DNA of 64,000 nt from an uncultured Flavobacteriaceae bacterium. GTDB lineage: Bacteria > Bacteroidota > Bacteroidia > Flavobacteriales > Flavobacteriaceae. Location: NCBI GenBank assembly GCA_947488435.1, contig CANKZG010000001.1:1914308-1978307 (forward strand), written 5' to 3'. Under the pieces are notes generated by a model. The model saw only the letters and a list, made by a program, of their open reading frames with translations, was not told the origin of the DNA and searched no databases. The position numbers were made by a program, and so were the translations under genes. Below are positions 3,930 through 16,017 of this stretch, in pieces (the first letter of the stretch is position 1; each line of letters opens with the position of its first letter).

Positions 3930-5882
3930 TTGAGAAATAAAATAAGTGTTATCATTATTTTTTTTATTTTTTTTGTCTGTAAAGCACAAAAAACATCAAA
4001 CTATGAGAGAAGTATTATAGAAAAACTTAATAAGTACCAATTTGATTCTGTTAAAAGAAGTTTGATAGATTCTAAAAAGGTTAATTCTAACGATCTATTC
4101 CAATCTATAATCAAATGGAATTTAGGTCTTCTAGAAGAGAATAATATAAATCCTAGTTTGAATAATTGGATTAAACTTCATAAGCCAAAAAAAGACAGCA
4201 CAAAGGAGCGTATTTTATATGAAATACAACAAGGTGATTATTTGTTAAATAGTGATGAGGCTAAGTTCAGTACAGCATTTTCCAAGTATAGATATTCTTT
4301 TGAGTTGTCAAAGTCCCTAAAAGATTCAGTTTTAATATGTGAATCTTTAAAACGATTACTTTTTTATGGTTCAAAGTATTCTAGAAACATAGAAAGTTTA
4401 GAAAGATATGGTAATACTTATTTCAAATTTGCATATAGTAACAACGAAAAAGCAATTGCAATTTATAGAACCTTGTCCTATGAAACCCAAGTTGTTAGTA
4501 AACTTGTTAATAAAATAAGGCAGGGAATAACCTCAAAACCAAAAGATACCTCAAAACTTCATTTGGATATTCATAAAATTAATGTTGGAATAGAAATAGC
4601 ACAGAAATGTGGAAATAAGGTATTAGAGGCGGACCTTTTATTTATGTCTGCATTAAACAATAACTTGCACTTAAAGCGACCCGAAGAAGCCTTTAAGTTG
4701 TATAAGAAAGCCTATAATATGTTTAATAAGTATGATTTTGCATATGTAAATAGCAGAAAATTTGATGCGCTTTTAAGTATGGGAGCTCTATCTTATCTTA
4801 AGGGTGAAAATTACACTGCCGAGTTTTTTTTTAATAAAGCTTCTAAAATAAGCTTGCCTAAACAGGAGATAAGGGATTTACAATCCTTAAATCATTGGAG
4901 GTATAGTAATTTTGAAGCAATGAAAAAACCAGATAGTGCTTTAAAGTACTTGAAATTAAAGAATCAATTACAGAAAGAAATTAACCAAATTTCCACTAGT
5001 ATTGCTATCCAGGATATTGAAACTAAGTATCAAACAGCGGAAAAAGAAAAACAAATTCTAATTGAGAGACAAAGGGCAAAAGAACAAACCGAAAAAGCAA
5101 AGTTCAATCGTAATTTACTTTTACTAGTAAGCCTTGTATTGCTTCTAGGAACTACTATAGCTGTTCTTCTTCATAATAATGTTTCAAAAAAAAGAGTACT
5201 TGCCGAACAAGGACGGGAGATTCAACGTCAACGGGCAGAAAATCTCTTAAAAGAGCAAGAGTTGCTTAGTATCGATGCCATGATCGCAGGACAGGAAAAA
5301 GAACGTCAGTATGTCGCCAATGAATTGCATGATGATTTGGGCGGATTAATGGCGACCATTCAGTTGCATTTTGAAAATATCAAAACAAAGGAGAAAGATA
5401 CTCCTCTGGAAAAAGCCAGAATGCTATTGAATGAGGCATATCAGAAGGTTAGGAATATTGCACATGCCAAAAATTCCGGCGTACTAGCTCGCCAAGGGCT
5501 AATGCCTACACTGCATAAAATGGCCAAAACCATATCCGAAACCAATGCGTTGCAAGTGGAAGTGGAAGATTTTGGGCTTCAGCATCGTATGGAGAATTCG
5601 TTAGAACTCAATCTGTTTCGTATGATTCAGGAATTAATTACCAATATCATCAAACATGCAGAAGCAACGAAAGCAAGGGTCCAACTTACACAACATGAAA
5701 CAAGTTTAAATATACTAGTGGAAGATAATGGAAAAGGGTTTGCTATGCATAAAATCAAAAATTTGGATAATGGTATGGGACTCCGAACAATAGAGAAACG
5801 TGTGGAACATTTAGAAGGTAATTTTACTATCGATAGCAGCATAGGAAAAGGAACTTCTATGATAATAGATATACCGATATGA
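3930..5882 (+). CDS. TPR-containing sensor histidine kinase (HisKA_3 type)
   Basis: A 650-residue sensor kinase. It begins with an apparent signal peptide (hydrophobic residues 6-17, then KAQ), followed by a helical TPR-like sensor region to about 380, a transmembrane helix near 395-417 and a coiled coil. The H-box NELHDDLGG places the phospho-acceptor at His467. A HATPase_c domain follows, with an N-box (ELITNIIKHAEA) and G-box (DNGKGF, GMGL). This is the NarX/LiaS/DegS-like class common in Flavobacteriaceae. The start is TTG; no better ATG gives the signal sequence. It overlaps the response regulator by 4 nt (ATGA), so the two are translationally coupled partners. The signal is unknown. Confidence 0.9.
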   Translation: MRNKISVIIIFFIFFVCKAQKTSNYERSIIEKLNKYQFDSVKRSLIDSKKVNSNDLFQSIIKWNLGLLEENNINPSLNNWIKLHKPKKDSTKERILYEIQQGDYLLNSDEAKFSTAFSKYRYSFELSKSLKDSVLICESLKRLLFYGSKYSRNIESLERYGNTYFKFAYSNNEKAIAIYRTLSYETQVVSKLVNKIRQGITSKPKDTSKLHLDIHKINVGIEIAQKCGNKVLEADLLFMSALNNNLHLKRPEEAFKLYKKAYNMFNKYDFAYVNSRKFDALLSMGALSYLKGENYTAEFFFNKASKISLPKQEIRDLQSLNHWRYSNFEAMKKPDSALKYLKLKNQLQKEINQISTSIAIQDIETKYQTAEKEKQILIERQRAKEQTEKAKFNRNLLLLVSLVLLLGTTIAVLLHNNVSKKRVLAEQGREIQRQRAENLLKEQELLSIDAMIAGQEKERQYVANELHDDLGGLMATIQLHFENIKTKEKDTPLEKARMLLNEAYQKVRNIAHAKNSGVLARQGLMPTLHKMAKTISETNALQVEVEDFGLQHRMENSLELNLFRMIQELITNIIKHAEATKARVQLTQHETSLNILVEDNGKGFAMHKIKNLDNGMGLRTIEKRVEHLEGNFTIDSSIGKGTSMIIDIPI

Positions 5883-6499
5883 AAGAAACAACTGTGGTTA
5901 TTGCAGAAGATCATCAAGCACTTATTGATGGCATACAATCGTATTTGGAATACAAAGACGGGATTAAAATTATTGGTTACGCCAATGATGGGGAAGCGCT
6001 TTTAAGTTTGGTAGAACGGAAAAAACCATCCGTGGTCATTTGCGACATCCGAATGCCGAAAATTGATGGAATTACAGCTACAAAAATCTTAAAAAAACAA
6101 TATCCAGAAACTAAAATTATTGCCTTTACCATGTTTGATCAAGAAGAGGCGATACAGCAGATGTTAGATGCTGGAGCAGTGGGGTATATTTTAAAAAACT
6201 CTTCGCTTCAAGTAGTTCTAGAAGCGATACGAACGGTAGCGGAAGGAGAACGCTATTTTGATAAAAAAATTCACCAACCTACTGCAAAAAAGAATGGTTC
6301 TAAAAGTGTATTGTCAGCAAGAGAAAAGGAAATATTAGGACTTATTGGTAAAGGGAGAACTTCGCACGAAATTGCCGATCAACTTTTTATAGGAAAAAGC
6401 ACCGTAGACACGCACCGAAAAAATATGATTCGAAAATTAGGATTAAGTGGTGCAGGGGAGTTGTTGCGTTATGCTTTGGAGAAGAAGTATGATTTTTAA
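5879..6499 (+). CDS. NarL/FixJ-family response regulator
   Basis: A 206-residue response regulator. The receiver domain has acidic residues at Glu10/Asp11, the phospho-acceptor Asp56 (ICDIRMPK) and the conserved lysine in GYILKNS. A LuxR-type helix-turn-helix follows (LSAREKEIL, then SHEIADQLFIGKSTVDTHRKNM). The length is typical of the family. It overlaps the 3' end of the kinase gene and is its presumed partner. It may regulate its own operon (2392-6499); no repeat resembling a binding site was evident upstream of 2392. Confidence 0.95.
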   Translation: MKETTVVIAEDHQALIDGIQSYLEYKDGIKIIGYANDGEALLSLVERKKPSVVICDIRMPKIDGITATKILKKQYPETKIIAFTMFDQEEAIQQMLDAGAVGYILKNSSLQVVLEAIRTVAEGERYFDKKIHQPTAKKNGSKSVLSAREKEILGLIGKGRTSHEIADQLFIGKSTVDTHRKNMIRKLGLSGAGELLRYALEKKYDF

Positions 6500-6607: not shown

Positions 6608-7117
6608 TTATTCTAACTTTATTGTATTAACAATTGTCTCCAAAGATGCTATTCTTAGCGTGTCTATTTCCGCTGAAACGTCGATTTCTACCTCATTTGT
6701 TCCAGATTGAAGTGATGTGCCTTTAATTTCAGTAATTATTTGATTATTATTAATTAGTTGAATATCCAAGCAACTACTGCAATTATTAAACAAGGAAATT
6801 GTGATTTTGGTTATCCCGTTGGTTGCGGCTAAATCCATTTCTAAAGTGCTAAATTCGCCATTTTCTCCAGGTGAAGCTAGCAATATACCATCCCCACCTA
6901 AGGCGGTGGAAATCGCACGAATAACTCTAAAAGAAAAACCTTGCAACGTGAATTCAGTATCTTCAATGGTTATAGTTGTGGTCGATAAATCTATTGTTAT
7001 AGGTTGAAAACTCTGTGGTTCTTGAAAAGAACTATCATCATCTCTGGAGCATAGCATGAGAGGAAGAGTCAAAGACAAAACAATTAAAAATTTGCTACTA
7101 AATATAAATGTTCTCAT
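6608..7117 (-). CDS. Small lipoprotein of unknown function
   Basis: A 169-residue protein with a lipoprotein signal: a hydrophobic helix followed by LMLCS, then an Asp/Ser-rich linker typical of exported Bacteroidota lipoproteins. The mature part is predicted all-beta, with a CSSC pair near residue 112. It lies 22 nt after the CsgG-like gene and is probably co-transcribed with it from the promoter near 8150. No domain is recognised. Confidence 0.75.
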   Translation of the reverse strand: MRTFIFSSKFLIVLSLTLPLMLCSRDDDSSFQEPQSFQPITIDLSTTTITIEDTEFTLQGFSFRVIRAISTALGGDGILLASPGENGEFSTLEMDLAATNGITKITISLFNNCSSCLDIQLINNNQIITEIKGTSLQSGTNEVEIDVSAEIDTLRIASLETIVNTIKLE

Positions 7118-7139: not shown

Positions 7140-8117
7140 CTACTTCAATTCATTGATAATAGCCAAACATTCATCATTTTTAGGATTTAATAAATAAGCT
7201 TCTTTAGCATTTTTAAGACTATTGTCATACTCCCCATTATATAATTGCATTTTGGCAAGATTATATAGTGCAAATGATCTAGCTTTTCCTTCTGCTGTGG
7301 TTTTTGCAATTTGTTTAATCATTGCATAGCCTCCTTCAAAGTCGTCAATTTCAAGTAGGTTAATAGCTTTTTTTAGTTTACTATTAAATTTTCGATGGGT
7401 TTGAAAGTCGATCTCATATTCTTTTTGATGAACAGTAAATAATTCTCCAAATTGTATGCCTATATCTTCCTTTGCAAGTTGATAGAATTCCGTTGAACCA
7501 AAATCAGGGGGATATTGACAGTCGTATTTTGGGCTGGTCTTCTCAATCTTAGATTTGATAGTTCTAGAGAAAAGAACCGCTGCCGTTTGAAGATCAATAA
7601 TCTTTAAATTCACATCTAAACTATACACTCCTACTTGTCGATATGTTGTATTACACCCGTTTGTGGTTAACAGCGATTTGTCTTTCACCGCATTTTGAGC
7701 AAAATTATCTGTTTGTATCCTTCCAAAAATAATGAGACCAGAACCAAGAAAATCCCCTAATTTCTTAATTTGGTCATCATCTACATAACCGCTACGCTGG
7801 AAGTTGAGTTCTTTTAATAATGATGTGGTCTTGTCTCTGTCAATAAGAGTTAAGCCATCAATATTCGTAATTTGATTAACAAATTCGTCGTAGGTATCGA
7901 CGGTATGACTATCTTCTTGTTTTATATTATTAACAATTTCTGAGATAATAATGTTTTTGGTTTTAGAAACGTCAAAAACAGGTTGTTTGTCTACCAAATA
8001 TGTGATTTTGCTCCAACTTTCATTAAATAATGCACCTATGCTATTGTTTTGAGAAGTTCCCTTTTGAGGGGTTAATAATAATAATAGAACTGATGTATAT
8101 AGTATTGATATTTTCAT
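7140..8117 (-). CDS. CsgG/FlgO-like secreted protein with C-terminal TPR
   Basis: This 325-residue protein has a signal peptide ending near GTSQ. The middle (about 40-190) resembles the CsgG/FlgO-type fold: an early strand with a family-like phrase, LIDRDKTTSLLKELNFQRSGYVDD, then a LGDFLGSGLIIFGRI segment typical of these proteins. The last ~90 residues look like TPR helices (ALYNLAKMQLYNGEYDNSLKNA). There is no lipobox, so it is probably periplasmic or outer-membrane associated. A second protein of this type starts at 13629, and both genes share the same promoter motif. A role in export or envelope assembly is inferred from the fold only. Confidence 0.7.
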   Translation of the reverse strand: MKISILYTSVLLLLLTPQKGTSQNNSIGALFNESWSKITYLVDKQPVFDVSKTKNIIISEIVNNIKQEDSHTVDTYDEFVNQITNIDGLTLIDRDKTTSLLKELNFQRSGYVDDDQIKKLGDFLGSGLIIFGRIQTDNFAQNAVKDKSLLTTNGCNTTYRQVGVYSLDVNLKIIDLQTAAVLFSRTIKSKIEKTSPKYDCQYPPDFGSTEFYQLAKEDIGIQFGELFTVHQKEYEIDFQTHRKFNSKLKKAINLLEIDDFEGGYAMIKQIAKTTAEGKARSFALYNLAKMQLYNGEYDNSLKNAKEAYLLNPKNDECLAIINELK

Positions 8118-8142: not shown

Positions 8143-8184
8143 CAAATCTAATAGTGACCAATAAAATAACCTTACGGTTTTCCG
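8143..8184 (-). promoter_or_regulatory. Promoter with 16-bp operator for CsgG-like gene
   Basis: Read on the minus strand: CGGAAAACCGTAAGGT (8184-8169), an 18-nt spacer, then TAGATTTG (8150-8143), which fits the Bacteroidota -7 consensus TAnnTTTG, 25 nt before the ATG at 8117. The same 16-mer at the same 18-nt spacing precedes the gene at 13756. The upstream box is in the place of an activator site rather than a normal -33 TTG. Confidence 0.65.
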
Positions 8185-8248
8185 CATATGGTAGTTTTTA
8201 ATATTTTTTTTAGTTTAAATAACCGATAAATTCGATGAGATTACACAT

Positions 8249-8917
8249 TTAAATTAGCCCCAGATCTTTAGCAGTGGCTACAAGCTGGATTGTGTTCTTT
8301 GCTTTGAGCTCGTCTTTAAGGCGATTAAGTTTTTTCTCAATAGAACTCAAGCTACTGGGTGAGATATTATTTTCATGAAAGTGTTTTGAAATTTCATCCT
8401 GCGTCCAACCCTCGGATAAATGTAAAAGCAATCTTACATCATAATCTTCAATTTCAAAAATATCTTTACGTTTCAACGAATCTGCTAATTCTTGAGATAA
8501 ATAGGATTCACCATTATTAACCGTCTGAATAGCTTCCATTAAATGTTTAAGGCCTTTTCTTCCTTTAAGCACGTATCCTGATATAAGATTACTATGCATC
8601 AATTTTTTAACCACGGTTGGTTTATCTTCAACAGAACAAACAATTATGGGAACCCTACTACCTATATCTCTTACCTTTTTTATGAATTCATTTCCAGATG
8701 GTAAACGGCTATCTCTGTGATCTTTTGTAAAACACAGGTCCGTTATAATAAGATCAAAAGGAAGATGATCTCTTTCAGCCTTTAAGAATTTTAAATAGGC
8801 ATCATCACAATATTGAGATAGTACCACTTGTGCAACTTTCAATTTATTTCTTAACATAGCATCTATACCATAGCTAATGCTATCCAAATCTTCGATCACC
8901 ATAACTTTGTTATACAT
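8249..8917 (-). CDS. NarL-like response regulator
   Basis: A 222-residue receiver plus helix-turn-helix protein. Receiver landmarks are Glu9/Asp10, the likely phospho-acceptor Asp60 (LIITDLCF) and Lys in GYVLKGRKG; there is a short insertion after the acceptor. The C-terminal domain (GWTQDEISKHFHENNISPSSLSSIEKKL) is a divergent LuxR-type HTH. I chose the ATG at 8917, preceded by AGAGAG, rather than the GTG at 8938 that would overlap the kinase gene. It follows the kinase by 14 nt. It is the best candidate to bind the palindromic operator found before 8117 and between 13629 and 13756. Confidence 0.88.
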   Translation of the reverse strand: MYNKVMVIEDLDSISYGIDAMLRNKLKVAQVVLSQYCDDAYLKFLKAERDHLPFDLIITDLCFTKDHRDSRLPSGNEFIKKVRDIGSRVPIIVCSVEDKPTVVKKLMHSNLISGYVLKGRKGLKHLMEAIQTVNNGESYLSQELADSLKRKDIFEIEDYDVRLLLHLSEGWTQDEISKHFHENNISPSSLSSIEKKLNRLKDELKAKNTIQLVATAKDLGLI

Positions 8918-8931
8918 AACTCTCTTCAGAA

Positions 8932-10857
8932 TTAGCACGGAATAGAAATATCAATTTTAACTCCTTTCCTAGGTTCAGCCTTAAAAATAAAAGTACCATT
9001 GCAACTTTGGATACGGGAAACCGTATTTTGTAATCCCATACCATATTTTTGATCGGACTTACAACCAATTCCATTGTCTTTATAACGTATGATGATTTTT
9101 TTCTGATCTTTTTTAAAGTCGAGAACTACTAAGGAAGCTTCACTATGCTTTTTCATATTAACCATAAGCTCCTTTAAAGTTCTATGGATAGCTACGCAAA
9201 TGTGTTCTTTTAATTTATGCCATGCTATGCTATCTATTCCCTTAGCAACAATTGAGACATCTTTTCCCTGATATGTTTTTAAAAGCGATCTCAATTCGTT
9301 AATATATTCCATCCCAGTTATGATAGCGTTATTTTCATGTGAAATATCCCTAGTGCGTCGGTATATACTTTCTAAACCATCTAAAAAAACTTTGTTCTTT
9401 TTTTTTGCTATGTGCTCTAACTGAGTCATTAGGCTGAATACATCATTTGCTAAACCATCATGCAATTGTTTACTTATTCTTTTTTCGGTACGATAAATTT
9501 CTTGTAATCGCTCTTTTCGATGTTTCTGTTTAAGAAAAAAGAAGAATGAGGCACCACTTAAAATTAGGAAGCCACTTAATGAAAGAATTACTATTTTTTG
9601 ATTTTTCTGCTCTGAGATTTCTACCCTTCGCTGATTTGATTCAATTTCGAGTTGTTGAATTTTAATTTTTTCTAATTGATCGTCATACCGCATTTTTGCG
9701 AATTGCGTTTTCACCTTCAACTCCTGTCTGTATAAGCTGTCTTTTAAAAATATATAACGTTCTTTATATCCAATATCTTTTGGGCTAATGTCCATTAAAA
9801 ATGAAAGCGCATCTATCTCTGCCTTAGGTGTTTTTAGCTGTTTTGAGAGCAAAATCAGCGAATCTAGATACAATTTAGCCCGATTAATATCATGATATGT
9901 GTAGTATTCCCCTAAATCGGTATAACTGGCTAATAATCCTCTGTAATCATTTTTTTTCTTCCGTATTTGTAATGCCTTTAAAAAGTCTATGAGCACTCTA
10001 TTTTCATTATTCTTCCAACGACTATAGGTTAAGTTGTGCAATATTCTAGCGTACTTAAATGTACTTTTTTTTAAGAGAGGACTGGAAATCACCTCATTCA
10101 ATAAATCTATTGCTTTCTTATACTCTTTTTGCTCTCGATAAACTACCGAAAGATTATTTTTATAGGATAAAATATCTTCTTCTGAAATCGAAACGTTTAT
10201 TGCTTTTTTATGATATAAAATAGCATCTTGATAGTTGAGAAGTTTCCTATTATTAACTCCAAGTTGATCATAGACTGATGCTAAAAACCGCCTGTCCTTT
10301 ACAGTATCCAGTAGTTTCAAGGAAGCCGTTAGCAATTCCTTTGCACCAAAAAAATCATTTTTAGTTCTTAGAAGCATAGCCATATTCATATAAATACTTC
10401 CTGCTTCAGAACTATCCTTAATTTTTAAAAATGTGTTTTTTGATAGTTCATAATAATGATATGAACTATCTATTTTACGGCTTAGGTCGTCGTAATAATA
10501 ACCGATGTTGAAGTATGCTTTCCCCTTAAAACTGTGATGAGTATTTAAATTCTGAAAGGGTTTCTTTGTTATTAATTGATTGTAATAAAGAAAGTCGTTA
10601 TAGGCGCCTTCTTCAAAATGTAAAAGACTTTTTTGTAGCAATATGGCGAGATCTAAAGAATCAACACTAGTGGAACTTATTGTAGAATATAAACTGTCGG
10701 AAAGATTGATTCGAGTTTCAAGTGGTATAGATCTATTTTTTAGTTTATAATAGAGAATACTCTTCTCATTTTCAATTTTTTGATAATTTCTTTTTGTTAA
10801 ATCGCAGGAAGCAAGAACAAAAAAAAAGAAAATGAAACCCGCAAATTTATGATACAT
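8932..10857 (-). CDS. TPR lipoprotein sensor histidine kinase
   Basis: A 641-residue kinase. The start ATG at 10857 gives a lipoprotein signal (FFFFVLASCDLTK). The ATG at 10899 was rejected because it falls inside a terminator hairpin. An extracytoplasmic TPR region covers about 50-420, followed by a transmembrane helix near 435-455, an H-box (KQLHDGLAND, His466) and a HATPase domain with N-box (ELMVNMKKHSEA) and G-boxes (DNGIGCK, GMGLQNTVSRI). It is followed by its response regulator. Upstream is a tiny lipoprotein gene separated by the terminator. The combination of lipid anchor and transmembrane helix means the TPR sensor is held at the membrane at both ends if the Cys is lipidated. Confidence 0.88.
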   Translation of the reverse strand: MYHKFAGFIFFFFVLASCDLTKRNYQKIENEKSILYYKLKNRSIPLETRINLSDSLYSTISSTSVDSLDLAILLQKSLLHFEEGAYNDFLYYNQLITKKPFQNLNTHHSFKGKAYFNIGYYYDDLSRKIDSSYHYYELSKNTFLKIKDSSEAGSIYMNMAMLLRTKNDFFGAKELLTASLKLLDTVKDRRFLASVYDQLGVNNRKLLNYQDAILYHKKAINVSISEEDILSYKNNLSVVYREQKEYKKAIDLLNEVISSPLLKKSTFKYARILHNLTYSRWKNNENRVLIDFLKALQIRKKKNDYRGLLASYTDLGEYYTYHDINRAKLYLDSLILLSKQLKTPKAEIDALSFLMDISPKDIGYKERYIFLKDSLYRQELKVKTQFAKMRYDDQLEKIKIQQLEIESNQRRVEISEQKNQKIVILSLSGFLILSGASFFFFLKQKHRKERLQEIYRTEKRISKQLHDGLANDVFSLMTQLEHIAKKKNKVFLDGLESIYRRTRDISHENNAIITGMEYINELRSLLKTYQGKDVSIVAKGIDSIAWHKLKEHICVAIHRTLKELMVNMKKHSEASLVVLDFKKDQKKIIIRYKDNGIGCKSDQKYGMGLQNTVSRIQSCNGTFIFKAEPRKGVKIDISIPC

Positions 10858-10890
10858 TGAACTTGGTTTTGTGGAATTGAATATAAATAA

Positions 10891-10917
10891 AAAAGCCATA
10901 CAATTTGTATGGCTTTT
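10891..10917 (-). terminator. Intrinsic terminator between small lipoprotein gene and kinase gene
   Basis: AAAAGCCATACA (10891-10902) pairs perfectly with TGTATGGCTTTT (10906-10917) over a 3-nt loop. On the minus strand it is followed by a T-rich run (TTTTTTATTTA). It ends the 50-residue lipoprotein gene and lies 34 nt before the kinase ATG, so it may also act as an attenuator for the kinase. Confidence 0.75.
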
Positions 10918-10932
10918 AGAAATTCTAAAGAC

Positions 10933-11085
10933 TTAGTTGTCACCAGGTTTCTTTTTTACTTCCTCTGTGTTGCCCTCTGTAGCTTGCACTTCAAATAGCT
11001 CTTCAGTATCCGTCAAGTTTTCACTAGTACATGATGTAAAAGTAAAAGCAAAAGCTAATACAATAATAAATAGTAACGATTTCAT
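10933..11085 (-). CDS. 50-residue lipoprotein next to sensor kinase
   Basis: The ORF has 50 codons plus TAA: a hydrophobic signal (MKSLLFIIVLAFAFTFTSC) with lipobox TSC at Cys19, then 31 residues rich in Glu, Asp and Thr ending in KKKPGDN. Tiny lipoproteins with this layout (TSC, an acidic middle, a C-terminal Gly/Asp/Pro end) are common in Flavobacteriaceae, often beside regulators. It lies just upstream of the TPR kinase in the same orientation. Function is unknown; a signal or modulator for the kinase is an inference. Confidence 0.7.
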   Translation of the reverse strand: MKSLLFIIVLAFAFTFTSCTSENLTDTEELFEVQATEGNTEEVKKKPGDN

Positions 11086-11144
11086 GATTTTAATGTTTTA
11101 AGGATTCAATGAAATCGGCAGCTCTTCAGACAGCCCCTGCCGTT

Positions 11145-11154
11145 GGACATGTCC
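11145..11154. promoter_or_regulatory. GGACATGTCC palindrome in divergent region
   Basis: A perfect 10-bp palindrome lies between the minus-strand lipoprotein gene (start 11085) and the plus-strand gene at 11294, with a further ACATGT eight bases away. A variant -7 box TTACTTTGC on the plus strand is at 11178-11186, about 24 nt downstream. Operator function is inferred. Confidence 0.3.
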
Positions 11155-11216
11155 GATACATGTTATAAGCTCTGTAATTACTTTGCTAAACTCGTTTAAT
11201 GATAGAATAAGGCTGA

Positions 11217-11242
11217 GTCATGACCGTCATGACGGTCATGAC
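11217..11242. promoter_or_regulatory. 26-bp perfect palindrome made of three GTCATGAC octamers
   Basis: GTCATGAC occurs at 11217-11224, 11226-11233 and 11235-11242, a 9-bp period, with single C and G spacers that make the whole 26 bp self-complementary. It lies ~30 nt downstream of a putative -7 box (11178-11186), so it would sit in the leader as a strong hairpin or on the DNA as a three-copy operator. The ATG at 11243 abuts it. Confidence 0.6.
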
Positions 11243-11293
11243 ATGTTTGAATTTGTGAAAATTCGTAAGAGCTTTTTATGTATTTTTGGATTT

Positions 11294-12049
11294 ATGGTGG
11301 TTACCAAACTGACACGGGAACTTTTACCCCATTTTATCTTTTTGATAGATGAAATTCACGCTAGTCAAAGTGATTTCGTAGAAATAGGAAAGCTTGCTCG
11401 TGAGTGCAGAGATAAGGAGATAGATACTAGCTGGCATTCATTAAATAGAGCTTTTGCCTTTAGGAACTTGTTTAAGGAATCAATTTCGCCAGAACAAACA
11501 TTTAATATTCCCAAAAAGAAAACTTTAGATGCCCTCACCAAATACTTATATGGTGAAGATTTTATTTTTAGGGATTTAGTACTCAATAACAATCAGATTG
11601 ATGTAGATAATAAAATAATCCAAAAACATTATTTAGCAAATCTTCCGAATCCGGATACCCTTAAAAAAGTGTTTGAAAAAAGACCCCCTAAAGTGGAGCA
11701 TTTGGACAATCAGATAGATGCGCATAACCATTTTATTCAAGAATTGAAAATACATTCTCTAAAAGAGTTTATTGCTGATGAAGTAAATAAACGTTTTGAA
11801 GAATTGCAAAAGGAGATGACTACCGAACTAGAGCTAAAAAAAGACCTCCTTTCACAGTTAGAGGATAAAATAATAGAATTGGAGAAGAAAAGAAGAAGGG
11901 CGCATTTCGTGTATCGATTTTTTGGGATGTTTGGACTATTTTTTGTTACGATTGACTATGATGAAATTACTAAAACTGAAATTCTTGAAGGTTTTATGGA
12001 TGAATACCAAGGAATACTAAAAGAAGATTTTTTAGATGAAATACTATGA
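11294..12049 (+). CDS. Hypothetical coiled-coil protein
   Basis: The frame is open from a TTG at 11183, but that lies in a putative promoter, and the codons up to 11242 are the GTCATGAC repeats. The ATG at 11294 (251 residues) is the more natural start; 11243 is possible. The protein has no known domain. The N-terminal half is soluble alpha/beta-like, and a coiled coil (about 150-215) carries an EKKRRRAHF basic patch followed by a weakly hydrophobic stretch. The stop overlaps the next start by 4 nt, so it is coupled to the membrane protein at 12046. Confidence 0.6.
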   Translation: MVVTKLTRELLPHFIFLIDEIHASQSDFVEIGKLARECRDKEIDTSWHSLNRAFAFRNLFKESISPEQTFNIPKKKTLDALTKYLYGEDFIFRDLVLNNNQIDVDNKIIQKHYLANLPNPDTLKKVFEKRPPKVEHLDNQIDAHNHFIQELKIHSLKEFIADEVNKRFEELQKEMTTELELKKDLLSQLEDKIIELEKKRRRAHFVYRFFGMFGLFFVTIDYDEITKTEILEGFMDEYQGILKEDFLDEIL

Positions 12050-12702
12050 ATTTAAGTACAGAACGTAAGATAAAGTTTTGGTTGACCAGTTTGGCGAAAA
12101 TGATTTTCATTGGTTTTTTAATTTTTAAGGTATATGATTATACAAAATCTCGAAAAACATCTAATGATGCTATTGCTACCGAAGGTGATCTTATTACGAA
12201 AACGGATACTATCATAGATAAGAAAGGAGAAAAACCACCTGTAAACGTTCAAAAGTCTGAAACAACAGAAGTAAATAGACTTCCTAACGGTTTGCCAAAT
12301 GAGCCCGATGACTCTATAGAAAAGGAAAAGCCGCTACCTGGTACAATAGGTATTTATATTTTTAATGAAAACGGATTGGATGCTCAAGTAAGTCGACATA
12401 TGGAAAATACTATTTTACAGAATTACATTGCTATGGCAATAGTGTCAAATCCTAATAAGGAGAAACTTCTAGCGGGAGATATCCCTGGATATTTTAATAC
12501 CGAAACTGTTTGCATAGGCACCACGTCTTATAAGTTTACAGAGAGTGATACAAAAATCACTTGTCAGTTAACTTTGAGCTTTGATACCTATATGACTGCA
12601 ACAAGAAATAAAATAAGAGAACTTTCAGGTTCTAAAACTTACTATGGCATTGGTTTTTCACAAGAACAGGCAAAGGAAGTGGCTGTTAAAAAAATACATT
12701 GA
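12046..12702 (+). CDS. Membrane-anchored hypothetical protein (anchor type shared with 14534)
   Basis: A 218-residue protein with one N-terminal transmembrane helix (about 12-30), a Thr/Lys/Pro-rich linker and a C-terminal alpha/beta domain ending in FSQEQAKEVAVKKIH. Its first ~40 residues (KIKFWLTSLAKMIFI...KVYDY) closely match the start of the 247-residue protein at 14534, while the rest differs. The C-terminal 120 residues have the feel of a small lipoprotein-type secreted domain, but no family is recognised. Coupled to the gene before it by a 4-nt overlap. Confidence 0.7.
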   Translation: MNLSTERKIKFWLTSLAKMIFIGFLIFKVYDYTKSRKTSNDAIATEGDLITKTDTIIDKKGEKPPVNVQKSETTEVNRLPNGLPNEPDDSIEKEKPLPGTIGIYIFNENGLDAQVSRHMENTILQNYIAMAIVSNPNKEKLLAGDIPGYFNTETVCIGTTSYKFTESDTKITCQLTLSFDTYMTATRNKIRELSGSKTYYGIGFSQEQAKEVAVKKIH

Positions 12703-12705
12703 TAA

Positions 12706-13629
12706 TTATTTAATCGTATAGGTTTTGGATTGGCAGACTTCTACCTTAAGTTCACCTTTATCCTTAAGAAATTTTGAATATCCCGAATTATTCAATTTAC
12801 TCTCATTTCCGTTAAATTTTTCTTCACTATTAAAATCTTTCCATGTGGCTATAAAATAGTTGAAAGGCCTATTTGTTATAGCATAAACACATTTGGTTTC
12901 CCTAGTATTCAAAATAATTGTTCTATATGTATTTGGGTATCGATCTTCTTCATTTTCAAAATAACCAATCCTTAGAATAACCTTTTCATTTAGTGCATTG
13001 CTAAAACAAAAATCCCCAGTAGAGTTTTTTTTACAGGAAGGGTCTACCGTATCTGGATTATTAACGGTTTCATTAGATCCTAAAGGTACATTAAAACCCC
13101 GATTGGGTGAATTTCCTCCATTAACACTAACCCCCAAATAAGAGGCAATATTCTCATCAAGCGGTAAGCTTGCAATATTGGCTGCGAATTGCCTTGCTGT
13201 TTCCGTATCTAATACCTTTGCTCTCACCTTAATTACTGAGTTTAAAACGGTGTACGTGCCTGTAATAATGGCATCTACTGCTACTATTTTACCCAATTCT
13301 TTAGCTGTATTTTCATCAATATAACCTTCGGCATTCAATTGATGCTCTTTTAGCAATACGTCTAAATGGTTGCGATCTATAACCTCAAACTGATCGCCAA
13401 AATTGGTGATGTACACCGAAAAATCCTCGGTGAGGTAATTACCTAAAGCTGTACGTCCTCCGTTTTCTGTAAAAAACCCCCAAACCGCTATTTTAGTTTT
13501 ACCAGTAGCTTTTATTTTTTGAGCGATGTTTTGAGCCAATTTTTCAAGACCTGAGTCGAAATCTTGCGCTAGAATTGAATTAGAAGATAATAGTAGAAAT
13601 AGAAAGAGAAAGTGAGTTACTTTTTTCAT
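12706..13629 (-). CDS. FlgO/CsgG-like secreted protein
   Basis: A 307-residue protein with signal peptide (cleavage near ILAQD). Residues ~25-165 fit the FlgO/CsgG-like fold: KIAVWGFF, LTEDFSVYI, FEVIDRNHLDVLLKEHQLNAEGYIDENTAKELGKIVAVDAIITGTY. The shared ID/LL/GYIDE...LG pattern also appears in the protein at 7140-8117. The C-terminal ~130 residues form a separate domain with four cysteines, likely disulfide-bonded. It is transcribed divergently from the lipoprotein gene at 13756 across a perfect palindrome. Periplasmic or outer-membrane location is likely. Confidence 0.75.
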   Translation of the reverse strand: MKKVTHFLFLFLLLSSNSILAQDFDSGLEKLAQNIAQKIKATGKTKIAVWGFFTENGGRTALGNYLTEDFSVYITNFGDQFEVIDRNHLDVLLKEHQLNAEGYIDENTAKELGKIVAVDAIITGTYTVLNSVIKVRAKVLDTETARQFAANIASLPLDENIASYLGVSVNGGNSPNRGFNVPLGSNETVNNPDTVDPSCKKNSTGDFCFSNALNEKVILRIGYFENEEDRYPNTYRTIILNTRETKCVYAITNRPFNYFIATWKDFNSEEKFNGNESKLNNSGYSKFLKDKGELKVEVCQSKTYTIK

Positions 13630-13658
13630 TTTAGTAATTGATTGGTATATGAGATATA

Positions 13659-13733
13659 CAATAATAAGTCTTTTTCCAAAAAAGATCGTTACGGAAAACC
13701 GTAAGGTGTTGTTTAGTGTTGTTTTTAAGTTTG
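13659..13733. promoter_or_regulatory. Divergent promoter pair around palindrome TTACGGAAAACCGTAA
   Basis: TTACGGAAAACCGTAA (13689-13704) is a perfect 6-4-6 inverted repeat. On the plus strand, CGGAAAACCGTAAGGT (13692-13707), 18 nt, then TAAGTTTG (13726-13733) matches the layout before 8117 exactly. On the minus strand a near-consensus TATTATTG (13666-13659) lies 19 nt from the mirrored site. One operator can therefore serve both the FlgO-like gene (13629) and the 13756 operon. Confidence 0.65.
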
Positions 13734-13755: not shown

Positions 13756-14040
13756 ATGAAAAAATCAATTTGGATCGTAGGAATCTTTATGAGTTTAACC
13801 CTACTAAGTTGTGGAAATGCAATTGATAGTGATGCTGCAAAAGTAGCAAATTTGCAGTGTGAAGCTAAGGAATTGGCGCAAAGTGCAATGTCAGGAGATG
13901 CGACAGCTATGGAAGAGAGTAAAGAGTTATTAGCAAAGGCAACGAAGTTAACTAGCGAACTACAAAAAAAATACACTTCTATAGAGGATCAGCAAAAATT
14001 TCAATCAGCATTGGCCAAGGCGCTAGGAAATTGCAATTAA
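13756..14040 (+). CDS. Small helical lipoprotein
   Basis: A 94-residue protein with a lipoprotein signal (SLTLLSCGN, Cys19). The mature part is all-helical, Ala/Lys/Glu-rich, with one cysteine in LQCEAKEL and one near the C-terminus (LGNCN). It is first in the plus-strand cluster 13756-15277, driven by the palindromic promoter. Function unknown. Confidence 0.8.
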   Translation: MKKSIWIVGIFMSLTLLSCGNAIDSDAAKVANLQCEAKELAQSAMSGDATAMEESKELLAKATKLTSELQKKYTSIEDQQKFQSALAKALGNCN

Positions 14041-14071: not shown

Positions 14072-14473
14072 ATGGTTTTAAAGGAAATAGATTATGGAAA
14101 GGTGATTCTTAAAATATTAGAATTGATAATAGTCAGACCTTTGACATTACCACTAAAAATATATAAGAACTCACTTAGAGCTTTATCGAATACTGATGCA
14201 GATGATTCAGAAGAAAGTAATCTTTCATTAGATTTTCCCCTATATATATGGCTAATTAGCATATTTGATGCGATTATAGTTTTAATATATCCATTGGGAC
14301 TAATTGCAGCTTTTATTGGTGGGTTTAACTCCTACGGAGCAGGTTTTGGTATTTTTATTGGGATATTATTGACAACCTATTTTACACCGCTTCTATATGG
14401 TCTTATACGAGAATTTGCTCAGATTTCACTAAAAGTATTATTGTACTTGAAAATTATGAGTAAAAAGCAATAA
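14072..14473 (+). CDS. Small membrane protein
   Basis: A 133-residue protein with two or three transmembrane segments (around 58-80 and 82-105, perhaps a third near 108-125). The N-terminal ~50 residues are amphipathic with an Asp/Glu/Ser stretch. It follows the lipoprotein gene by 31 nt, so it is likely in the same transcript. No family recognised. Confidence 0.65.
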   Translation: MVLKEIDYGKVILKILELIIVRPLTLPLKIYKNSLRALSNTDADDSEESNLSLDFPLYIWLISIFDAIIVLIYPLGLIAAFIGGFNSYGAGFGIFIGILLTTYFTPLLYGLIREFAQISLKVLLYLKIMSKKQ

Positions 14474-14533: not shown

Positions 14534-15277
14534 ATGAGCCTTAAAAAAGAACAAAAAATAAAATTTTGGCTGGTCACTATTTCCAAAATATTATTCATAA
14601 TCTTAGTTGTTTACAAATTGATTTCTTTTTCGTTGGAATCAAAAAAAAGAAAAAACCTAGAAAAGGCAAATGACGCTTATGCCAGAATAGATGGAATTTT
14701 CAAGGACTTAATGAGGAACTATAACAATATTCTTGATATTCATGGATCATTGGAAAATAACAAAACTTATATAGAGTTTTCTAGAGAAAACCTAGAATCT
14801 AGAAATGAATACAGAAAAGAACTGATTAGAAACTTAAAAGAATTTGAAAAGACTATAACGGATATCAGAAATACTACTTGGCGTCCGGAATTTAAAAAAA
14901 TAATGTTAGAACAAGAAGAAAAATTACAGTCGGAAATATCTAAATTCCAAAATTATCAAGAAAAAAATAATATAGACATTAGAAATGAAAAGGAAAGTTT
15001 GAGAAAACTATTAGTTATTAACGATAGCCTTGAATATAGGTGGGCAAATTTTGATGGCTTTTCACAATTAGAATTGAATACTAAAAAACTATTTACAGAA
15101 ATTGAAAGCGACAAATTACAAATTACTTTAGATAAAATAAAAAAATGGAAAAAAGGATTAGAGAAAGATATAGATTTTATTTATGAAGAAAATACGCAAA
15201 ATATAGATCATGAATTCCTAGAAATCATAACAGTTGAGTTTGAAAAGGCTGTTCGCCGCCTCTATGTCAATAACTAG
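14534..15277 (+). CDS. Membrane-anchored coiled-coil protein
   Basis: A 247-residue protein. One N-terminal transmembrane helix (about 13-33) is followed by ~200 residues of charged, heptad-rich coiled coil. Its anchor (MSLKKEQKIKFWLVTISKILFI) matches that of the protein at 12046. The soluble part should lie on one side of the inner membrane. It is the last gene of the 13756 cluster, 60 nt after the small membrane protein. Function unknown. Confidence 0.7.
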   Translation: MSLKKEQKIKFWLVTISKILFIILVVYKLISFSLESKKRKNLEKANDAYARIDGIFKDLMRNYNNILDIHGSLENNKTYIEFSRENLESRNEYRKELIRNLKEFEKTITDIRNTTWRPEFKKIMLEQEEKLQSEISKFQNYQEKNNIDIRNEKESLRKLLVINDSLEYRWANFDGFSQLELNTKKLFTEIESDKLQITLDKIKKWKKGLEKDIDFIYEENTQNIDHEFLEIITVEFEKAVRRLYVNN

Positions 15278-15617: not shown

Positions 15618-15622
15618 AGAAG

Positions 15623-16017
15623 TGGAGCCGGAGGGAGTCGAACCCTCGTCCAAACAAGCTATTGCAAAGCTTTCTACATACATAGTTTCCGTTCAATTTT
15701 CGATGTACAACCGACCGAAAACCGCCTATTATACACTTAGCTTCTTAAGTTTTTAGTGATGGTACCAAAGCTATACCACCCTTGTGTTGACTTTTATAGT
15801 GCCTCTTTATGAATCGCCGTCAACAAGGGCTATCCAGAGACATCTCGCTTCCCTACCTAGTAAGGACGAGGCTAATCTTACTATAATTCAGATTAAGCGG
15901 CAAGAGCGTAGTTATTATCGCCAATTAAAAGTGTGGAAAATGAGTTTTACGAGCTGTAGCCCAGCGCTCGGCATGCTTACCTTCCAATTGGTCTCGCTGT
16001 CAAAACCAGTCGGCCCC
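15623..16017 (-). ncRNA. ssrA: tmRNA (transfer-messenger RNA), tag GDNNYALAA
   Basis: The 3' end shows the tRNA-like T arm (GGTTCGACTCC) and the acceptor strand ending GGCTCC-A. The 5' end GGGGCCGAC pairs with it in a 7-bp acceptor stem with one G-U. The 5' part has the conserved CTGGTTTTGACAG segment. CCA is not encoded. The resume ORF at 15922-15893 reads GGC GAT AAT AAC TAC GCT CTT GCC GCT TAA, giving the tag GDNNYALAA, ending in the LAA degradation signal. The RNA (~395 nt) rescues stalled ribosomes with SmpB. Confidence 0.97.

Follow-up and report, generated by a model that had tools for sequence, protein, structure and literature searches.

A probable palindromic operator with rigid promoter spacing and its predicted regulator, a DUF5932-type response regulator of the Flavobacteriaceae

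A 64,000-nucleotide (nt) stretch of the genome of an uncultured Flavobacteriaceae bacterium, called the window below (the whole genome is 4,342,517 bp), carries the genes of a sensor kinase and a response regulator, flanked by two copies of one 16-mer, CGGAAAACCGTAAGGT. One copy precedes the gene of a CsgG/LpoB-like exported protein and the other precedes a lipoprotein operon. The question raised by this locus is whether the 16-mer is an operator and, if so, whether it belongs to the regulator encoded between its two copies. A first-pass annotation of window positions 8143-13733 had proposed both. The element underlying the 16-mer, TTACGG-N4-CCGTAA (often followed by GG), is very probably the site of the regulator encoded at 8249-8917, which would act as a class II activator of three promoters at this locus. 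The evidence comprises the sequence of the site, its spacing to the promoter, its conservation, a constraint on synonymous codons, the co-occurrence of site and regulator, and the occurrence of the site far from the regulator.

The two copies of CGGAAAACCGTAAGGT lie at 8184-8169 on the minus strand and at 13692-13707 on the plus strand, as originally annotated, and the window contains no other mismatch-free copy. Random copies throughout the genome would have spoken against an operator, and the whole genome was scanned for them; it contains the sequence exactly twice, both times at this locus. The sequence 18 nt after either copy is TAnnTTTG (TAGATTTG at 8150-8143 and TAAGTTTG at 13726-13733), and the second copy is indeed part of a perfect palindrome, TTACGGAAAACCGTAA (13689-13704). 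The operator core is the inverted repeat TTACGG-N4-CCGTAA. The annotation recognized two promoters only and missed a third site, TACGGGAAACCGTA (9012-9025), which is situated within the kinase gene. A near-consensus box, TATTTTTA, follows it at the canonical spacing and precedes the regulator gene, which the site probably drives.

The exact sequence TACGG-N4-CCGTA is found three times in the genome, twice at this locus. The composite pattern ACGG-N4-CCGT-N23-TAnnTTTG, which consists of the core palindrome plus the −7 box, is found once without a mismatch (13691-13733) and three times with one mismatch: at operator 1, before the CsgG/LpoB-like gene (8185-8143), at the kinase-internal site (9024-8982) and at one place elsewhere. 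Three of the four matches with at most one mismatch are therefore at this locus. The fourth (G000:C2:6180) sits in a helicase/relaxase-like open reading frame (ORF) and was taken as chance. TAnnTTTG by itself was rejected as evidence, because it is not enriched in the window (82 copies vs 95 expected), and the weight was put on the palindrome-box pair and its spacing.

Relatives of the regulator were searched for in 149 related genomes, with matches at E ≤ 0.001 in 78 of them, and in a collection of named genomes, which gave two loci, one of them from Flagellimonas hadalis. Forty-three loci with a total length of 843,393 bp were oriented by the regulator and compared. These are the first 20 kb of the window and 42 neighbour loci, namely L040 and L041 together with 40 others, most of which were chosen as top matches among the 149 relatives. 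The palindrome ACGG-N4-CCGT has 73 matches in these loci. The interval from 1000 nt upstream to 1500 nt downstream of the regulator start contains 44 of the 73, and these come from 31 of the 43 loci. No other of the 256 four-base palindromes recurs as often near the regulator, the runners-up being A/T-rich. Each of the other 11 orders of the letters A, C, G and G has 0-3 near matches, and spacers of 0-3 and 5-9 nt give 2-8 matches in the 843 kb compared to 73 for the spacer of 4 nt. The palindrome is preceded by T and followed by A in 70 of its 73 occurrences.

The geometry of the promoter is rigid. When up to 45 nt are read on both sides, the 73 palindromes are accompanied by 44 TAnnTTTG boxes, and 41 of them are at exactly 23 nt; the remaining three are at 19, 25 and 36 nt. 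The box density of the window predicts about 3.6 boxes in all by chance and 0.09 at any one offset. According to the main text of a study of Flavobacterium psychrophilum, the sigma-A box TAnnTTTG occupies positions −12 to −5 (PMC9723704). The palindrome would therefore extend from −47 to −36 and be centred at −41.5. An operator with this centre and a box at fixed spacing has the layout of a class II activator-dependent promoter.

The flanks outside the search pattern were read from 80 non-kinase sites in other genomes, the choice of which is described below. T precedes ACGG in 99% and A follows CCGT in 100% of these sites; the next outer pair is T in 74% and A in 90%, followed on the promoter side by G in 47% and G in 60%. 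The consensus TTACGG-N4-CCGTAA(GG) fits a 7-2-7 inverted repeat. NarL/FixJ-type regulators bind inverted heptamers that are 2 bp apart, and the half-site of NarL differs from the TTACGG half-site found here.

The kinase-internal site is translated as the codons ACG GTT TCC CGT (T V S R) in the frame of the kinase. A kinase ORF was called in 39 of the 43 loci, and the caller used gave none in the other four. A DNA search for the best match upstream of the regulator found a site with at most two mismatches and in frame in 37 of the 39 kinases (no mismatch in 16, one in 10 and two in 11). Because such a search could favour its own letters, the codons were counted again using a protein motif, G-x-x-x-x-x-x-R near the C terminus of the kinase, which locates them in 38 of the 39 kinases (L074 is without the motif). 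The sites located by the motif have no mismatch to ACGG-N4-CCGT in 16 kinases, one in 11, two in 10 and three in one. Their Thr is encoded by ACG in 17 of 18 cases, Ala by GCG in 13 of 13 and Val by GTG in 7 of 7; in the third codon, Asn is AAC in 27 of 27 and Ser is TCC in 9 of 10; the 38 Arg codons are 33 CGT and 5 CGC. The rest of the same kinase genes use ACG for 13% of Thr, GCG for 12% of Ala, AAC for 30% of Asn, and CGT and CGC for 16% and 12% of Arg, respectively. The choice of synonymous codons is beyond the reach of protein conservation and thus the DNA word itself appears to be under selection. Of the 43 loci, 31 have an exact box at the fixed spacing from the kinase-internal site and 11 have a box with a single mismatch; the box is absent in one locus, L054, where the DNA search had chosen the wrong place. 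The simplest reading of the site is that it is the operator of the regulator's own promoter. An operator and a promoter before the regulator gene, with the site in the 3′ end of the kinase gene, are the predicted arrangement of an autoregulated two-component system. In the window, TATTTTTA ends about 65 nt upstream of the regulator start codon.

Two variants of this arrangement were seen among the loci. In L052 the regulator gene is present as two tandem copies; either copy has a kinase-internal operator to itself, and more operators follow downstream. The kinase-internal site of L080, L081, L062 and L063 departs from the consensus by 2-3 mismatches, perhaps reflecting a shifted specificity.

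The association of the operator with the regulator was examined in 397 genomes of the family, in which the regulator was called with a 46-sequence profile at E ≤ 1e-30. The strict composite pattern is present in 109 of these genomes and the regulator in 148; both are present in 99, the regulator only in 49, the operator only in 10 and neither in 239. The pattern has 188 matches, 176 of which are in the 148 genomes with the regulator and 12 in the 249 genomes without it. The reversed pattern, used as a control, has 25 matches in 25 genomes (counted by eye), 13 of which have the regulator. In 35 genera with mixed content, which provide a partial control for ancestry, the site is commoner with the regulator in 22 genera and rarer in none, with 13 ties. 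The comparison of genomes thus upholds the proposal of a shared operator with rigid promoter geometry and links it to the adjacent regulator.

The regulator had been annotated as a NarL regulator, and its overall architecture agrees with that name. The receiver domain is recognized by Response_reg in 43 of 46 family members at E ≤ 0.01 (26.9 bits in the window protein vs a cut-off of 30.2), and D10, D60 and K118 are invariant in all 46 sequences. The profile of the 46 sequences matches 4zmr (spr1814) at 3e-13 and RcsB at 5e-13. These matches extend past the receiver to cover the beginning of the C-terminal domain, the later part of which is outside most of them. Foldseek gives full-length matches to DesR, spr1814 and RcsB with E of ~1e-7, ~200 columns and rmsd of ~5-13 Å, with the C-terminal domain modelled at low confidence. 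The regulator resembles the NarL/FixJ-type regulators (RcsB, VraR/LiaR, DesR, spr1814) in its layout of a receiver and a predicted C-terminal DNA-binding part, as well as in having a partner kinase. Unlike theirs, its C-terminal domain matches DUF5932 (PF19355) and not the GerE (LuxR) helix-turn-helix: DUF5932 is matched by 26 of the 46 members and GerE by one, which is not the window protein. The DUF5932 match of the latter is partial (24.2 bits vs a cut-off of 23.7, residues 154-209, profile positions 31-82 of 111). The regulator is thus predicted to work like a NarL-type protein by its overall architecture, but it is not classed as a GerE member. The kinase has a lipoprotein-like signal (assigned by eye) and TPRs, and its HisKA_3 and HATPase_c matches are below the cut-offs.

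In the reading that we favour, a dimer of the phosphorylated regulator would bind the 7-2-7 repeat centred at −41.5 and would act as a class II activator at sigma-A promoters, its right half-site taking roughly the place of a −33 element. It would activate the promoter of its own gene from the operator in the 3′ end of the kinase gene, and those of the CsgG/LpoB-like gene and the lipoprotein operon. We infer dimer binding, class II activation rather than repression, and positive autoregulation from the sequences; the regulator would presumably be phosphorylated by the kinase in response to a signal from the envelope. Several observations weigh against this reading. Activation is read from the operator position alone. 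Operator 1 has one mismatch to ACGG-N4-CCGT, TATTTTTA is a near-consensus and not a perfect box, and 12 of the 43 loci are without a mismatch-free palindrome near the regulator. The strict composite is absent from 49 of the 148 regulator genomes and present in 10 of the 249 others, and the counts in the 397 genomes ignore shared ancestry. In the model of the regulator (3 sequences), pLDDT stays below 50 for much of the segment 187-222, and no claim is therefore made about the fold, including one suited to 7-2-7 binding. Finally, loose matching in the bacterium's own genome gives no excess over the reversed pattern, whether TACGGWWWWCCGTA is searched with at most one mismatch (9 per strand vs 23 per strand), the 16-mer with at most two (11 vs 12) or the composite with at most two (26 vs 35). 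Loose matches were dropped for this reason. Only near-exact sites are meaningful in that genome, and the case for function rests on the comparison across genomes.

Other explanations have to account for the same data. The regulator could bind the palindrome and repress, or repress when unphosphorylated and activate when phosphorylated. Autoregulation is compatible with either sign, the operator abuts the promoter, and near-perfect palindromes are common for repressors. Nevertheless we consider repression unlikely, because a centre at −41.5, upstream of the −7 box and at a single spacing (41 of 44), is the geometry of a class II activator, whereas repressor operators usually tolerate varied positions and often lie over the start site. 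That the motif is owned by another transcription factor or by an alternative sigma factor, the kinase-regulator pair being merely one of its targets, is less plausible still and we regard it as very improbable. The 12 strict matches in 249 genomes without the regulator stand against 176 in the 148 with it; they amount to 0.05 per genome, close to the frequency with which the reversed pattern is found (25 in 397 genomes, by eye). Gains and losses within genera follow the regulator, and the box is an ordinary sigma-A box, although such an owner would explain both the composite site in 10 of the 249 genomes and the large share of sites far from the regulator (43 of 80, among the matches listed). 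The explanation hardest to sustain is a repeat without regulatory meaning, two 16-mers at one locus being the product of a duplication and the kinase palindrome that of the conserved residues N-[TAV]-x-x-R. The lack of excess among looser matches agrees with it, but the control permutations, the single spacing, the rarity of exact copies, the co-occurrence, and the synonymous codons at positions found by the protein motif alone contradict it, and it was rejected.

The class II activator reading assigns predicted targets to each of the three operators (Table 1).

Table 1. Operators, promoter boxes and genes of the locus, in window coordinates
Feature	Position	Strand	Description
169-aa protein	6608..7117	−	Lipoprotein-like signal; co-directional next gene after the CsgG/LpoB-like gene
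CsgG/LpoB-like exported protein	7140..8117	−	325 amino acids (aa); predicted target of operator 1
−7 box TAGATTTG	8143..8150	−	23 nt after CCGT; predicted transcription start ~8138
Operator 1, GCGGAAAACCGT	8174..8185	−	Before the CsgG/LpoB-like gene; 16-mer at 8169-8184
Response regulator	8249..8917	−	222 aa; receiver domain and DUF5932 C-terminal domain; predicted DNA-binding activator
Sensor kinase	8932..10857	−	Operator 2 in its 3′ end
−7 box TATTTTTA	8982..8989	−	Canonical 23 nt from operator 2; predicted transcription start ~8977
Operator 2, ACGGTTTCCCGT	9013..9024	−	Inside the kinase gene; predicted to drive the regulator gene
FlgO/CsgG-like exported protein	12706..13629	−	Divergent from operator 3; doubtful target
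Operator 3, ACGGAAAACCGT	13691..13702	+	Core of TTACGGAAAACCGTAA; 16-mer at 13692-13707
−7 box TAAGTTTG	13726..13733	+	23 nt after CCGT; predicted transcription start ~13738
94-aa lipoprotein-like protein	13756..14040	+	Predicted target of operator 3
133-aa membrane protein	14072..14473	+	Second gene of the lipoprotein target operon
247-aa protein	14534..15277	+	Third co-directional gene after operator 3; possible operon member

The 325-aa protein matches Pfam LpoB (3.2e-5) and CsgG (1.3e-4), both just over the cut-off, and has a weak C-terminal TPR, with TPR_2 under the Pfam cut-off. The 169-aa protein, which is without a Pfam match, is possibly encoded by the second gene of the same target operon. 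The CsgG/LpoB-like gene and the lipoproteins keep their place among the proposed targets. The FlgO-like gene (Pfam FlgO, 5.1e-7) is a doubtful one. The near-consensus box that was annotated as facing it, TATTATTG, is present, but it has one mismatch and is 24 nt after CCGT on that strand and not the canonical 23; no TAnnTTTG occurs within 45 nt on this side of operator 3. Divergent activation is therefore unsupported and the gene was not counted as a target.

Some of these targets recur elsewhere. A CsgG-like homologue is also downstream of the operator in L156, and homologues of the 94-aa lipoprotein are downstream of it in L041 and L161. Membrane proteins of the 133-aa type (identified by eye) are encoded by the second gene after the operator in L156 and L161, and the two proteins (L156_2 and L161_2) cluster with each other. 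A wider view of the targets came from the 80 sites mentioned above. They were hand-picked from those listed of the 188 matches, omitting rows that resemble the kinase-internal site and some others; the choice was made by the letters and place of the site before the downstream genes were known, and 4 kb downstream were read. Measured to the regulator positions listed, 25 of the 80 sites are within 3 kb of the regulator, 4 are at 3-20 kb, 43 are beyond 20 kb or on another contig, and 8 are in genomes for which no regulator position is listed; four of the 8 belong to G312, where the regulator profile nonetheless has matches. A compact regulon, as had been proposed, is what this genome suggests, but other genomes also have sites far from the regulator.

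The 139 proteins encoded downstream of these sites, many of which are without a Pfam match, were grouped by single linkage. The recurrent families include small DUF4236-type proteins, a TerB-like operon, a 240-aa exported protein, YidD (4 of the 139 proteins) and type I restriction-modification genes. The TerB-like operon follows the operator in L143, L146, L147, L175, L177 and L183. It consists of a TerB-like gene and a gene for a 419-448-aa protein, which had no Pfam match in the one member scanned, and four loci add a lipoprotein-like protein of ~301 aa. PADLOC gave no match for two proteins of this operon from L143.

Restriction-modification genes are linked to the operator more often than expected. 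The domain HsdM_N (PF12161) has 61 matches in the 55 genomes concerned, and at 9 of the 80 sites it is encoded on the same strand no more than 4 kb downstream, vs 0.045 expected, places being compared by eye. The nine sites are L142, L151, L152, L192, L195, L198, L203 (a fragment), L208 and L209. A local search for restriction genes found them in 13 of the 80 target regions, in none of 40 controls, which have half the total length, and in 4 of 42 regulator loci (up to 20 kb). The controls had been placed at round coordinates in some of the genomes that also supplied the targets, and they encode 49 proteins compared to 139 in the targets. Since the queries of the local search were taken from the targets, the 13 of 80 are not independent and serve as an illustration only; the PF12161 count is independent of these queries. 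PADLOC gave 244 families, many of them overlapping and the largest having 5 members, over the 139 target proteins and 2 families of one member each over the 49 control proteins. Measured to the regulator positions listed, 9 of 11 restriction-linked regions are far from the regulator, one (L145) is near it and one (L203) is in a genome for which none is listed. Most of these regions have ~40 to 380 nt between the box and the first gene, and restriction genes often come second or third.

Linkage of the site to restriction genes does not prove regulation, and the tie of the regulator to defence genes can be considered a lead. The sites that other genomes have far from the regulator, some of them before restriction-modification genes, make the term 'envelope regulon' too narrow. 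A tentative reading, which we think possible but not probable, is that a chromosomal two-component system with an operator in its own kinase gene is a switch joined repeatedly by accessory conflict genes, an envelope signal turning on defence genes together with envelope lipoproteins. The joining genes would be type I restriction-modification systems, GmrSD-type nucleases and TerB-like operons, all carrying the same rigidly spaced promoter, and the signal might perhaps be phage attack.

Control of defence genes by a signal-transduction pair has a parallel in Escherichia coli, where the BaeSR two-component system controls CRISPR. The families and operators are other ones, however, and one defence system is controlled there, whereas several unrelated cassettes share one operator here. 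Response_reg_2/HEF_HK two-component-like pairs are also tied to restriction-modification systems, by genomic region and especially to type II, according to the available text of PMC8011034. The families of those pairs, PF19192 and PF19191, are not listed for the regulator or the kinase of the window, and the link found here is by a shared operator, mostly far from the regulator, and to type I systems. The promoters resemble the flavobacterial sigma-A promoters described in the main text of PMC9723704 in having the same −7 box, TAnnTTTG at −12 to −5, but differ from them by an activator site upstream at a fixed distance; the strings 'acgg', 'ccgt' and 'palindrom' are absent from that main text.

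No description of this system was found among the literature matches listed, in a search that covered neither subscription papers nor supplements, which agrees with the annotation. DUF5932 is unmentioned in the literature so searched, and the matches listed for TTACGG are primer noise. As predicted from the sequences, the system is a regulon under a two-component activator whose DNA-binding domain is uncharacterised; it includes an operator inside a gene and its targets form an unusual set. It assigns a DNA site and a promoter geometry to a class of response regulators with a C-terminal domain of 'function unknown', and ACGG-N4-CCGT-N23-TAnnTTTG can be used as a predictor of the regulon. It also offers an apparent activator site held by selection within protein-coding sequence. 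If the link to restriction-modification is true, unrelated defence cassettes would be wired to one chromosomal sensor.

The neighbourhood of the locus contains several other features. Two genes on the plus strand at 11183-12702, between the kinase and FlgO-like genes, have no Pfam match; a relative of the first, of similar length and place and divergent from the kinase, is present in L040, L041 and L043 (by eye). A second two-component pair, encoded at 3930-6499 on the plus strand, consists of a TPR-like kinase and a regulator that, judged by eye, ends in an ordinary LuxR-like part, and the CsgG-like operon is thus flanked by two two-component systems, this one and the DUF5932-type pair. Beyond the lipoprotein operon there is a tmRNA gene (15622-16017, minus strand) with the tag peptide GDNNYALAA.

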